A stretch of DNA of 23,155 nucleotides, from positions 1 to 23,155 of the IMG/VR virus record IMGVR_UViG_3300005518_000238; one strand, 5' to 3'. The notes beneath the pieces are model-generated. The model was not told where the DNA came from. It searched no databases and was given only the letters and a program-made list of their open reading frames with translations. This DNA is from a virus. The position numbers and the translations under genes were made by a program. This document shows, piece by piece, positions 1,990-22,802 of this stretch. Numbering within the stretch: position 1 is the first letter of the stretch; each line of letters opens with the position of its first letter.

Positions 1990-3348
<1,359 letters not shown>

Positions 3349-6993: not shown

Positions 6994-7538
6994 TGACGCC
7001 AGAACAGGATCTGCGCCAGCACCTGGAAGACGTGGACCGCCTGCGACTGCAGCGCGGCTGGGTCTATAGCTCGCCGCAGCGCTTTGTCCTGACGCACGGG
7101 GTGACCGGCGCGCCGCATCCGGTGCCGCCTGGTATGTGGCAAGGCCGACCTCGGTGCTGCTTTGACAACGCCATTACCGTGGCGATGCTCTACGATATCC
7201 CGTACATCGAGGGCTACGCCTTGCTGGGGCTGGACGGCCAGACCCTTGCCCTGCACCACGCCTGGAACCTCGACGCGCACGGCCGCGTCATTGACGTCAC
7301 CTGGCATCCGTATGTCGGGCTGGCGTATCTGGGCGTACAGTTTGCTCCTGAGCGTGCTGACGAGGCCACCTGGAACTTTGATGGGACGATCTTAGAAGAC
7401 GACAAGCGGCGCTATCCGCTGCTGCGCGAACCCTGGCACGGCGAGCCGCCAGGTGTGGTCTGGCCGCACTCCCCGCGCTTAGACAGGATCCGGCGCATGA
7501 AACGGCGCCTGCTTGGGCAGGAGGTGTGCCATGACTGA
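6993..7538 (+). CDS. Cys-His hydrolase-like protein (papain/transglutaminase pattern)
   Basis: A 181-residue protein starting at ATG 6993, which overlaps the previous stop (TGATG) and has GAGGTG upstream. The order of motifs suggests a cysteine hydrolase-type fold: RCCFDNAI (Cys56) starting a helix, then YIEGYALLG strands, then HHAWNLD (His89) and VIDVTWHP (Asp101). Cys, then His-x-Trp, then Asp is the catalytic order in papain-like and transglutaminase-like folds. A second gene in this operon (8769-9215) has the same layout. Substrate and activity are unknown, and the pattern could equally be a non-enzymatic relative. Confidence 0.65.
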   Translation: MTPEQDLRQHLEDVDRLRLQRGWVYSSPQRFVLTHGVTGAPHPVPPGMWQGRPRCCFDNAITVAMLYDIPYIEGYALLGLDGQTLALHHAWNLDAHGRVIDVTWHPYVGLAYLGVQFAPERADEATWNFDGTILEDDKRRYPLLREPWHGEPPGVVWPHSPRLDRIRRMKRRLLGQEVCHD

Positions 7539-7830
7539 TGCCCCCACCCCTGGCCAGGTCGCGTACGCGGCGTATTGCGAAACCCGTGATCCGTGGTGGC
7601 ATCCAGACTTCACACTCCTTCCACCAGAAGCGCAACACTGTTGGGAAGTCGCCGCGCAGGCCGTGCTGACGTGGAAGCCGGCGCCTGCCGTGGTCCATAG
7701 ACTCAGGGCAGGGGTGCCGCTCTGTGGCTTTTCGCGTGAAGCGCCCGTGCATTGGCCAGCGGGCCATCGCTGGAGTGCGTTTCAGGCCGACATCACCTGC
7801 CCAACCTGTCAGGAGGTGTCTCATGGCTGA
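7531..7830 (+). CDS. Small zinc-binding protein
   Basis: A 99-residue protein. ATG 7531 has CAGGAGGTG directly upstream and overlaps the previous stop by eight bases, so this start is secure. It carries a C-terminal CPTC pair (about residues 91-94), preceded by a Cys (VPLCGF) and His residues (HWPAGHRW) that could complete a zinc site. The N-terminal half is Trp/Pro-rich (ETRDPWWHPDF). Function unknown. Confidence 0.7.
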   Translation: MTDAPTPGQVAYAAYCETRDPWWHPDFTLLPPEAQHCWEVAAQAVLTWKPAPAVVHRLRAGVPLCGFSREAPVHWPAGHRWSAFQADITCPTCQEVSHG

Positions 7831-8095
7831 CACGGCGGCGTGCCCGTCCTGCCAGGCGAAGCTGGTCGCGCATGTCGCCCTGCCGTGGGGCGACGGGGCG
7901 CAGCGCCTTCCTGCGGCGCCGTGGATCTGCTCGCACTGTGCGGCCTTGGGGATAATCGAGCTTGAGACGGGCATGATTACGCTGGTGCCTGACGATGCCT
8001 GGAAGCCCGTGCAGGAGCGCAATCCCGTCCTCTGGCAGGATATTGTGCAGGCGCGGGCGCTGATTCTGGCGCAGGGAGGCCCCCATGACGCTTAA
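7823..8095 (+). CDS. Zinc-ribbon protein
   Basis: A 90-residue protein starting at ATG 7823, with AGGAGGTGT upstream and an eight-base overlap with the previous stop. Two clear knuckles, CPSC (residues 7-10) and CSHC (about 36-39), are spaced as in a four-Cys zinc ribbon. The rest is a helical tail (LWQDIVQARALILAQGG). Zinc ribbons of this size usually bind nucleic acid or protein partners; no partner can be inferred here. Confidence 0.75.
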   Translation: MADTAACPSCQAKLVAHVALPWGDGAQRLPAAPWICSHCAALGIIELETGMITLVPDDAWKPVQERNPVLWQDIVQARALILAQGGPHDA

Positions 8096-9450: not shown

Positions 9451-9525
9451 GTTGCGCGAGAATCAGTCCTGACGTATCCTGATGCCATCCCCCTATGGAC
9501 ATACGTGTCTCTGGGGGGCCCGCCG

Positions 9526-12033
9526 ATGGACGCCATACAGGATGCACCAGGCCAGGTCAAAATCTACACGCCCACCCCGACGATCGCCCGCTGTATGCGC
9601 TCGCCAGCGATTTTTCGGCTGCTCGTCTCGGGCCGTGGCGAGGGCAAATCCTCTGGCTCCCTCATGACCATCGTGACCCACGCGCAGAAACAAGATCCGG
9701 CGCGCTGGCCGCTCAAATTTGCCGCCCTCAGAGATACCCGCCGCAACTTAGGTCTGACCACGGCTGCGACGATCAAAGAATGGTTCCCGGAAGGCCTCGC
9801 CAGCTTCTGGGTCGGCAAAGACCTGGAGCCTGAATACGCCCAGATTCGGCTCCATCCTGAACAGAATCCGGTCGTCGAATTTTTCTTCTTTGGCTGCGAT
9901 AACCCCCGCGATTACTCGAAATTCCAGTCGTTTGAGTGCGATGGCGTGTGGATGGAGGAGCCGGCCCCGGCTGCAGATATTTCAGGCGGGATTCCGGGCG
10001 ACGCGCTGGCGATCGCCGTCACCAGTATGCGCAAAAGCGCCCAGCCGCTGGTTATTATTGCCGAAAATCCCCCGGATGGTTCCGACTGGACGGCGCAGAC
10101 CTGGAATCTCCCCGGTGCCGAGCCGACCGATTGGGACCTCGAGCGCCAGGAGGCGATTGAGCGCATCCGGGCGCAGTCCGAAGTGTTTATTATCCCCAAA
10201 GGCGAAAATTACCACTTAGATCTCAAAACCCCCGGCTACCGCGAGCGCAATCGGGATATGCTGCTGGCGCTGGGGCGCGCCGACCTGGTCGCGCGCCTGG
10301 TCGAGGGCAAAGTCGGCAACGTCAAAATTGGCGAGCCGGTGGCGTCCAATTTCCGCGATGAACACCTGGTGGACGCGGTCCCCCCGGTGCAGCGCGGCGA
10401 GCGCTTGATTACGTCGTGGGACCCGAAGCACTCGCCGGCCTGTATTCTGTGGCGCGTTCGCCCGGGCGGATTTTGTGATATTATCGCGGCATTTCAGGGC
10501 GTCAACATGGGGGTGAAGCAGCTCATCGAAAAGACCATCCGGCCCTGGCTGGCGCTCTACGTCCCGGATGAGGTGACGTTTATCCATACTGGCGACCCGA
10601 ACACCACGAACGAAGACCAGAGCGACTCGGCCATGAGCGCCGCGCGGGTGATTATCGATCTGATGGGCGGGGAGCAGTGGGTGCCGGGTCCGGTCTCCAT
10701 CGAAGACCGGCGCTTGCCGATGCACGACGTGCTCAATCGCTATCATAATGGTCGTCCATGGGTTAGAATTGATAGAAGACATAGTAAAGTATTAATTTCT
10801 GCCCTACAAGGCGGGTGGCATTATGGTCGAGACCCCACAGGTCGTGTGATAAAGGATCGTTGGGTGAAAAGTCAGGCGTGCGTCGATGCGCACACAGAAA
10901 TGTTGACGAGCGATGGATGGAAAACGTTTGACGCGATTAGCCCTGGCGACGCCTGTATTGCCTATGATCTTGATGCAGGGGTGCTGACAGATAGCATTAT
11001 TGAGAAAGTGTTTTCGTATGAAGAGTCGTCGCGTGTTGTGCATTTTAAGAACAACGCTCTTGATATGATTGTGACACCAAATCATAAAGCATTGGTAACA
11101 TGTAATCAGATGTCACAAGGTGTTTTAAGGTATGCGTCTCCTTTTTTAAAGCCAGTAGAACAGCTGTTAATGAATGACTATGTGGTGCGATCAGCAGAAT
11201 TTCCTACGCATGAAGAATCGGTGTATACCGATGAATTTGTTCGATTGTGTGCCTGGGTGTTGTCAGAAGGGTATTATGAAACAACCTATGCAGGGTTTCG
11301 TCTGTCACAAAGTGCGACGCACAATCCTGTGTATTGTGATTTTATTGATCGGCTTGGAGAGCGTTTTGGGGCGAAGCGTTACAGAAAGAACAAAGACGGT
11401 ACGCAATACGATTGGGTCTTTCCTGCTGCGATAGGCCATGCAGTGCGGGCGTTGTTTCCTGACAAAGTGTTAACTCCAGCGTTTTGTTTTGCTTTAACGT
11501 CACGCCAGCGCTGGATGTTTCTCTATGAGTTTGTGCGTGGCGATGGGGAATGGGCACGTAGCAGCCATGGTCCTGTGCCGGATTGTGCGATGGAAGGAGG
11601 CGCTGAGGATTTCTGGCAGCGGGGAGGAGTGCCACGTATTTGGCAAAAAAGCCATGCGAGTATTGACTGCTTGCAATTGCTTGCCACGCTTGCTGGATGT
11701 TGTGCGACGCTGCGGAAGGCCCAGAACCGTGAGGGGTGGCGACTGACGTTGCATCGGAACAAGCGCAAGACGTTTGTGCGTGATTTGCAGGTGACACACG
11801 AGACGCTTCCGTTCGTCTGGTGTCCACAGACAACGCACAGCACGTGGGTGGCACGGAGAAATGGGTACGTCTTTCTCACTGGCAACAGTGACGTCGGGGA
11901 AGCCTTTGCCTACGGCTGCGCCATGCTGACGCGCCGGGAGTTGACCCTGTCTGCGACGGAAAAGTGGCGCCGCAAGGTCTCGCAGATGAACCGCGATCAC
12001 CGCCTCAGGGTGGTGCATGGGACTGGAGCTTGA
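9526..12033 (+). CDS. terL: Terminase large subunit, interrupted by an intein
   Basis: The packaging motor ATPase and nuclease, encoded as an 835-residue precursor from ATG 9526 (GGGGGG seven bases upstream; an in-frame GTG at 9505 is less likely). The ATPase half has Walker A SGRGEGKS (residues 35-42) and Walker B with coupling acids in CDGVWMEEP (138-146). The nuclease half has ITSWDPKHSP (Asp299), HTGDPN (Asp357) and, after the intein, DVGEAFAYG (about 789-797), the C-terminal acidic motif of the RNase H-like fold. Residues 452-787 are an intein. Splicing would leave a 499-residue enzyme with the joined sequence DRWVKSQA-SDVGEAFAYG. GC content drops sharply at 10741 and recovers after the intein. 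Confidence 0.95.
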   Translation: MDAIQDAPGQVKIYTPTPTIARCMRSPAIFRLLVSGRGEGKSSGSLMTIVTHAQKQDPARWPLKFAALRDTRRNLGLTTAATIKEWFPEGLASFWVGKDLEPEYAQIRLHPEQNPVVEFFFFGCDNPRDYSKFQSFECDGVWMEEPAPAADISGGIPGDALAIAVTSMRKSAQPLVIIAENPPDGSDWTAQTWNLPGAEPTDWDLERQEAIERIRAQSEVFIIPKGENYHLDLKTPGYRERNRDMLLALGRADLVARLVEGKVGNVKIGEPVASNFRDEHLVDAVPPVQRGERLITSWDPKHSPACILWRVRPGGFCDIIAAFQGVNMGVKQLIEKTIRPWLALYVPDEVTFIHTGDPNTTNEDQSDSAMSAARVIIDLMGGEQWVPGPVSIEDRRLPMHDVLNRYHNGRPWVRIDRRHSKVLISALQGGWHYGRDPTGRVIKDRWVKSQACVDAHTEMLTSDGWKTFDAISPGDACIAYDLDAGVLTDSIIEKVFSYEESSRVVHFKNNALDMIVTPNHKALVTCNQMSQGVLRYASPFLKPVEQLLMNDYVVRSAEFPTHEESVYTDEFVRLCAWVLSEGYYETTYAGFRLSQSATHNPVYCDFIDRLGERFGAKRYRKNKDGTQYDWVFPAAIGHAVRALFPDKVLTPAFCFALTSRQRWMFLYEFVRGDGEWARSSHGPVPDCAMEGGAEDFWQRGGVPRIWQKSHASIDCLQLLATLAGCCATLRKAQNREGWRLTLHRNKRKTFVRDLQVTHETLPFVWCPQTTHSTWVARRNGYVFLTGNSDVGEAFAYGCAMLTRRELTLSATEKWRRKVSQMNRDHRLRVVHGTGA
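10879..11886 (+). mobile_element. Intein with LAGLIDADG (DOD) homing endonuclease in TerL
   Basis: A 336-residue in-frame insertion that should excise itself from the terminase. It starts with Cys (CVDAHTEMLTSDGWKTFDAI, block A). Block B follows with IVTPNHKAL, containing the T-x-x-H motif. The C-terminal end reads NGYVFLTGN, followed by Ser of the extein (agt, 11887). The usual penultimate His is Gly here, a known but less common variant. The middle holds two endonuclease helices, LCAWVLSEGYY (acid Glu) and FLYEFVRGDGEW (acid Asp), the DOD pattern, so homing activity is plausible. Codon use is more AT-rich than the host gene in its first two thirds. Confidence 0.9.
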
Positions 12034-22202: not shown

Positions 22203-22227
22203 CTATTATAAATAGTTCTAAAGAAGG
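22194..22227. terminator. Hairpin spanning the convergent capsid and HNH stop codons
   Basis: CCTTCTT (22194-22200) pairs with AAGAAGG (22221-22227), with an inner ACTAT/ATAGT and a short AT loop. Both stop codons (TAA at 22200 and TAG at 22218 on the minus strand) lie within it. The genes are only 15 bases apart. It probably serves as a shared terminator. Confidence 0.6.
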
Positions 22228-22802
22228 AGTGGCTGTACCGGAATGAGGGGCGCCCTATCGCGTTTCTTGCTGTTACAGCTTTTGCAGGCTGGCACAATGT
22301 TGCTCATGGTGTGCGAGCCGCCCTTCGAGAGTGGAATGATGTGGTCCTGGGTAAGTTTTTTCACTTTATGACCACAATAGGCGCAGCGATAGCCAAACTG
22401 TGCTTTGATTGTTTCCCATTGTGCGGCGGTTAAATCGTTAATGGGTGCATTGGCTTTTGCGGCACGACGACGACCATTATGTTGGGCGACAACATGGGGA
22501 TGGGTCGCTAGATATATTTTGTTTCTGGCGTTTTCTTTCTCTGGGTTTTCCCAATATTGGGCTCGTTTACGGGCGCAAATCTCGTCAGAGTGTTCGGCAT
22601 GGTAGGTACGGTCATGAGCGTTGATCTTCTCTTTGTTACGCTCATACTTGGCGGCATCGTAGGCTTTGATTTCCTCGATGTGCCTATCATAGTGGCGGCG
22701 TTTATTGGCCTTGCCCTTGGCGCTTTGCTGGTAGCGACGGAAAGTTTCTTTACGACGTGCTGCACGTTCTTCAGGCGTCAATGGGTTTTTGCGTGGTGGC
22801 AT
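22218..22802 (-). CDS. Free-standing HNH endonuclease
   Basis: A 194-residue protein. The C-terminal HNH domain is clear: CAYC (Cys140, Cys143), LTQDHIIPLSKGG (Asp153-His154), NIVPACKSCNSKK (Asn168, Cys173, Cys176). The two Cys pairs bind a structural zinc, and DH/N form the metal-dependent nuclease site. The N-terminal ~115 residues are basic, with repeated short Y/R/K/E-rich units (e.g. NKEKINAHDRTY, NPEKENARNKIY), common in phage homing-type HNH proteins and probably DNA-binding. It sits 15 bases from the capsid gene on the opposite strand. GGAGAGAAG precedes ATG 22802. It may drive homing of the ORF-less capsid introns from outside; this is inference. Confidence 0.9.
   Translation of the reverse strand: MPPRKNPLTPEERAARRKETFRRYQQSAKGKANKRRHYDRHIEEIKAYDAAKYERNKEKINAHDRTYHAEHSDEICARKRAQYWENPEKENARNKIYLATHPHVVAQHNGRRRAAKANAPINDLTAAQWETIKAQFGYRCAYCGHKVKKLTQDHIIPLSKGGSHTMSNIVPACKSCNSKKRDRAPLIPVQPLLL

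Follow-up and report, generated by a model that had tools for sequence, protein, structure and literature searches.

An intein with a Gly-Asn end at nuclease motif III of a phage terminase: probably a homing intein rather than a packaging switch

Introduction

The window analysed here is a linear phage record of 23,155 bases from IMG/VR, in which the gene of the terminase TerL carries an in-frame insert at the last acidic motif of the nuclease. This location raises the question of whether the insert is a mobile element at a catalytic motif, or a switch by which splicing sets the time of DNA packaging. A sequence-only reading of the locus had raised the possibility of the switch. We conclude, with a probability of roughly 0.87, that the insert is an ordinary and recently mobile homing intein, which belongs to a large phage family, resides in the TerL of a tailed phage and splices constitutively.

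The terminase gene and its empty and occupied alleles

The open reading frame at positions 9505–12033 (plus strand) encodes 842 amino acids and represents a TerL interrupted in frame. The match of this frame to Terminase_3 was weak, and a profile match to Sf6 gp2 (PDB 4idh) was confined to the ATPase region. The nuclease motifs are common to annotated terminases of BcepC6B and of Rhizobium, Cronobacter and Vibrio phages and, judging from the alignments, both ends of the reading frame are parts of one TerL. Based on the two profiles and the alignment, the N-extein (9505–10878, plus strand; 458 residues from the GTG at 9505) contains the ATPase domain and nuclease motifs I and II, with the motif I Asp (WDPK) at 10420–10422 and the motif II Asp (GDPN) at 10594–10596 in the alignment with TerL relatives. 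The ATG at 9526 is a likelier start codon than the GTG, because the relatives diverge upstream of it. No relative of this TerL was confirmed among bacterial and archaeal genomes, and no DNA similar to the window was found among sequenced phages.

The same TerL was found without the insert in two other phages, L004 and L007, and the L004 protein is 94.2% identical to that of the window. Both read RWVKSQA↓SDVGEAFAYG across the insertion point (arrow), with zero residues missing or extra, and since KSQA↓SDVGEAFAYG matches to the codon, both splice points are fixed. The intein extends from Cys1 to Asn336 (10879–11886, plus strand; 336 residues) and contains a nested LAGLIDADG (DOD) homing endonuclease, as indicated by the empty alleles together with the fold model, the Foldseek matches and the family alignment presented below. 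The C-extein begins with Ser+1 (SDVGEAFAYG...) and occupies 11887–12033, stop codon included, as seen from the empty-allele comparison. The intein had previously been placed at 10879–11889; the identification and the start are upheld, whereas the end was set 3 nucleotides too far and took in the Ser+1 codon. The ending was correctly read as LTGN followed by Ser, with both the C-terminal Asn (N336, codon 11884–11886) and Ser+1 present.

The window, L002 and L003 share one intein allele, which is intact in each of them. A different intein of 358 residues, only 30% identical to that of the window, is inserted at the same base in L005 and L006, although their TerL is 94.4% identical to the window TerL. 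In L145, whose TerL is only 29% identical, an intein sits at the homologous residue (VKDVH↓SHPSDALSHG). The empty site in L004 and L007, the other intein in L005 and L006 and the intein in L145 show together that the insert is not a normal domain and did not descend vertically along with the window TerL. On these comparisons, the motif III site has been invaded repeatedly by different members of the intein family.

That the segment might turn out to be a normal TerL domain had been anticipated in the sequence-only reading, and the searches of the window protein, in which no Pfam or NCBIfam intein model scored above threshold, would agree with such a domain. This candidate was rejected on the exact intein-less alleles, which show that the insert is separable. 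With an intein fold, all intein blocks present and relatives of the segment in unrelated host proteins, we give it practically no credence.

The window TerL also matches phrog_85 (thymidylate synthase) over residues 441–652. The label is an artefact of the intein, because the match covers essentially the intein alone. Elsewhere, the minus strand of the window encodes an HNH endonuclease at 22218–22802 (PF01844, E 6e-14), which is possibly a second, free-standing mobile nuclease of the phage, and a MoxR/CobS-like AAA ATPase at 1990–3348 (AAA_5, PHROG 249), in which a Pro-Glu repeat run, PEPEPEPEPEPEP, lies ahead of the ATPase domain.

Anatomy and predicted fold of the intein

The window intein was aligned with 71 relatives, giving an alignment (A5) of 72 full-length members. 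Cys1, the N-terminal nucleophile (10879–10881), is present in 72/72, a count that is not independent, since the N-terminal boundaries were found by a motif requiring Cys. Block B (TPNH, 11074–11085) provides Thr B:7 (T66) and His B:10 (H69). Position B:12 is Ala71 in the window intein but Trp in 41 of the 72 members, a departure that counts against our preferred explanation. Block F, WCPQTTHSTWVARRNG, at 11818–11865 contains Cys F:4 (C315) and serves as the signature of the family, as seen from both the pattern scan and the alignment. The C-terminal TGN (11878–11886) consists of Thr G:5 (T334), a Gly at G:6, where His is usual, and Asn G:7. All of these elements, like those of the endonuclease, are encoded on the plus strand.

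An AlphaFold model of the window intein computed from A5 reached a pLDDT of 93.7 and a pTM of 0.91. The best solved structures matching this model in Foldseek were the LAGLIDADG inteins TliVMA, PI-SceI and PI-PfuI, with E-values down to 8.5e-13, and the model thereby indicates that the insert has the HINT splicing fold. At the sequence level, the family profile also recovers PI-PkoII, V-ATPase inteins and I-DmoI. The block F pattern matched once in the window as compared to 0.00 times in shuffles; together with the E-value of the fold match, this excludes chance.

The two DOD helices noted earlier were recovered with their acids, E130 (SEGYY; motif at 11266–11271) being E or D in 70/72 members and D222 (GDGEW; motif at 11542–11547) being D in 70/72, and Lys196 between them (11464–11466) is K in 60/72. 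The suggestion that the homing enzyme is live is consistent with these data: the endonuclease looks intact, with both acids and the intervening Lys conserved and with matches to the LAGLIDADG fold. Decay of the intein to a form unable to splice, with TerL left dead or split, would fit the absence of a penultimate His and the atypical residue at B:12. We consider such decay very improbable given that the reading frame is open, that all family-invariant residues are kept, and that the allele is intact in all three contigs in a protein essential for packaging.

The insertion point within nuclease motif III

At motif III, which in the window TerL was placed by sequence alignment only, the relatives read DKNxYSHPADAxQY as compared to VKSQA↓SDVGEAFAY in the window, so that the junction lies directly ahead of the SH column pair. 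The Asp of SD aligns with the His of the relatives, and the Glu of GEA (11899–11901, plus strand), the fifth residue past the junction, aligns with the Asp of SHPADAxQY and is the third nuclease acid. The earlier placement of the intein at this motif is thus retained, with the acid reassigned from the Asp of SD to the Glu of GEA. It is a reasonable inference that the unspliced precursor should lack nuclease activity, because the third acid sits 5 residues beyond the junction.

This position would fit a regulatory gate, in which slow or condition-dependent splicing, responding to redox state, pH or temperature, would keep the TerL nuclease off until late infection and thereby time packaging. 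Several cysteines in the window intein, Cys1 and Cys F:4 among them, agree with this proposal, other inteins are known to splice conditionally, and the same idea has been put forward for the TerL of phage Mic1 (PMC7156551). On the other hand, conserved active-site motifs are favoured insertion points of homing endonucleases in any case, and a gate would be dispensable, since the closely related phages L004 and L007 do without the intein.

The intein family and its Gly-Asn end

We scanned IMG/VR for DNA encoding block F (pattern W C P x T ... A R R N G, silent on the last three residues of the intein) and obtained matches in at least 119 contigs. Among the 131 matches listed, with overlapping or duplicate loci counted, 128 have Gly-Asn followed by Thr, Ser or Cys at a fixed spacing after block F (Thr in 74, Ser in 51 and Cys in 3). 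The remaining three consist of one with Ser-Asn, one that is cut off right after Gly-Asn and one that is doubtful. A penultimate Gly was present in all 72 aligned full-length members. The host proteins are diverse and include portal protein, methylase, sigma factor gp55, DNA polymerase, a phosphoesterase-like protein and several terminases.

As far as these alignments reach, Gly-Asn is a fixed trait that is ordinary within this large phage family, and being inherited from the family it is not readable as a tuning for TerL. In the Bethlehem RDF intein, which has a native penultimate Gly, splicing is almost complete, whereas the substitution G316H causes the precursor to accumulate (PMC5050341); in the one phage case tested, Gly thus speeds splicing, contrary to the earlier expectation. 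The proposal that the missing His signals slow or conditional splicing was therefore abandoned, which corrects a tempting inference: a large phage family ends in Gly-Asn as a rule, and the ending is not a sign of regulated splicing. With the same ending fixed in proteins of many functions, a gate at TerL appears improbable.

Members of the family also recur at other sites. In metagenomic phages, a site in the T4-like sigma factor gp55, NWRGY↓T/S-Y-x-D/E-E/D-M, is occupied repeatedly (L030, L035, L041, L048 and about 30 others), the identity of gp55 being taken from an annotated relative in Synechococcus phage B23. In L115 (intein at 7035–8042, minus strand) and L139, whose host protein was identified as TerL by Terminase_3C, the intein lies directly after nuclease motif I (GLDFGY↓SNDPTA), and the motif I acid would be separated from the rest of the nuclease before splicing. 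An intein of the same subclade as that of the window is found in L119 (6491–7546, minus strand) in a TerL-like protein truncated by the contig end, where it falls in the nuclease domain, on a strand that precedes motif III by about 20 residues.

Active-site residues and splicing class

Cys F:4 and Thr G:5 are each present in 72 of the 72 members, most of which were retrieved with a pattern that specifies Cys F:4 but not Thr G:5. The pair Arg326-Arg327 is also invariant and likewise belonged to the search pattern. No conserved His was observed in the last 30 positions of the 72-member alignment, with at most 10/72 in any column. Neither of the histidines that usually assist Asn cyclization is thus conserved in the family, and the third splicing step would therefore use other help, a further point against our preferred explanation.

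The window intein has the class 1 features Cys1, Thr B:7, His B:10, a C-terminal Asn and Ser+1, but not the penultimate His, which is common in class 1 without defining it. The definition of class 3 requires Trp B:12, Cys F:4 and Thr G:5 and excludes a nucleophile at position 1 (PMC3196547); the window intein shares Cys F:4 and Thr G:5, but has Cys1 and lacks the Trp. By this definition it is not class 3 as judged from its residues, and it fits best into class 1, with a Cys at F:4, a combination that exists elsewhere and is polyphyletic (PMC3196547). Read from the alignment, an active site with Cys1, Cys F:4, Thr G:5 and no His mixes features of the two classes.

This mixture may extend to the mechanism, such that Cys F:4 would make the first attack while Cys1 is retained but dispensable. 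WCT inteins with Cys1 or Ser1 reportedly use the class 3 route, as Tori and Perler are said to have described in 2011. The invariance of Cys F:4 and Thr G:5, along with Trp B:12 in 41/72 members, points in this direction, as does Ser or Thr at +1 in 125 of the 128 Gly-Asn matches listed, which is a preference of class 3 inteins (PMC5222942). Against it stand Cys1 itself, the existence of class 1 inteins with Cys F:4, and the Ala at B:12 of the window intein, since splicing of the class 3 inteins tested is blocked when Trp B:12 is replaced by Ala (PMC5222942). On balance, we regard the mixed mechanism as tentative and rather unlikely. The active site with Cys1, Cys F:4, Thr G:5 and Gly-Asn nevertheless offers a direct two-mutant test of the origin of class 3 splicing.

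Traces of mobility

The 132 nucleotides just upstream of the intein (10747–10878, plus strand) are AT-rich, with a GC3 of 0.30 as compared to 0.75 over the remainder of the N-extein, and the corresponding 44-codon flank has a GC3 of 0.64 in L005 and 0.70 in L004. The window differs from L004 at 35 of these 44 codons, 27 of them synonymously, as compared to 127 of 380 codons elsewhere. The GC content is 40–58% in the intein itself and about 62% in the gene. The composition suggests that the flank was probably co-converted from a donor richer in AT.

Two further patches were observed. The first 44 nucleotides past the intein (11887–11930) are identical to L004 and L007, and the remaining 103 nucleotides differ at 27 positions; the identical stretch could be a half-site of the homing target or the edge of a recombined segment. 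Positions 1295–2668 of L002 are near-identical to 9505–10878 of the window save for a local patch about 600–720 nucleotides upstream of the intein, with 12 and 2 mismatches in two adjacent 60-nucleotide blocks, which suggests a small recombination patch.

In phylogenetic trees, the inteins at the motif III site form a supported clade with those of L119 and L044 (100/99 in both trees). Within the large tree, the L005 intein groups with that of L145 rather than with that of the window (100/91), although the alternative branching that joins the window and L005 inteins was not rejected (p-AU 0.24), and AU tests did not distinguish between the branchings conceivable for the three motif III inteins. 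The safe statement from these sequences is that at least one motif III intein was acquired separately, because TerL genes that are 94% identical hold inteins that are 30% identical at one base. Homing leaves this kind of discordance between intein and host, in which occupied and empty alleles coexist. The empty allele and two intein types at one base in near-identical phages, along with a third type in a distant TerL, constitute a compact natural set for the study of intein turnover.

Discussion

The explanation that we favour runs as follows. The 842-residue precursor would fold, and the intein would excise itself and join KSQA to SDVGEAF, thereby restoring nuclease motif III and yielding an ordinary TerL of about 506 residues (counted from the GTG at 9505). 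The active site of the family, with Cys1, Thr B:7, His B:10, Cys F:4, Thr G:5 and the fixed Gly-Asn, would carry out splicing without a penultimate His. In mixed infections, the LAGLIDADG endonuclease would cut the intein-less terL of related phages, and repair would copy the intein and some of its flank into the cut gene. We infer splicing, cleavage of the empty site and homing, as well as constitutive rather than switch-like splicing.

A more ambitious proposal joins several of these threads. The family would stand between class 1 and class 3 and be widespread in phages; Cys F:4 would start splicing despite Cys1; Asn cyclization would proceed without either histidine, perhaps with the help of Arg326-Arg327; the penultimate Gly would be required for speed; and family members would replace each other at TerL motif III. 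As a whole, this proposal is speculative and rather unlikely.

A close published counterpart by position is the second intein in the TerL of Microcystis phage Mic1 (MN013189), a protein with two inteins, one per domain (PMC7156551). It likewise lies within nuclease motif III, directly ahead of the catalytic Asp (QDHL↓CDALRY), which by inspection of the sequence is 4 residues nearer the acid than in the window, and the authors of that study likewise suggested control of packaging through splicing. In contrast to the window intein, it is a mini-intein without an endonuclease, it ends in Ser-Asn before Cys+1, and it interrupts a different TerL family. Both a TerL intein in the nuclease domain and the idea of packaging control are thus already published for this cyanophage (PMC7156551).

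By descent, the TerL inteins of the Gordonia phages GordTnk2 and GordDuk1 belong to the same family. They are 24.6% and 22.3% identical to the window intein over the full length and share Cys1, the block F residues WCPxT...ARR and the TGN end, with a fold match in BFVD at a TM of 0.83; they differ in that their host is an unrelated TerL, which they interrupt in its ATPase part. The actinophage DNA methylase inteins Dorothy_75 and Bobi gp73 are also of this family by alignment, with a different host protein and site (PMC9957025). Methylase inteins are scattered among related methylases, and two types of them jump between divergent hosts (PMC9957025). The intein of Bethlehem gp51, the RDF, resembles that of the window by its published description, being a class 1 intein that splices efficiently with a penultimate Gly (PMC5050341). 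Finally, the mycobacteriophage TerL inteins a–g also reside in the TerL of tailed phages, those tested splice efficiently, and two cut their empty sites; unlike the window intein, however, all are located in the ATPase domain and several are class 3 (PMC5050341). To this literature, the window intein adds a site in the TerL nuclease.
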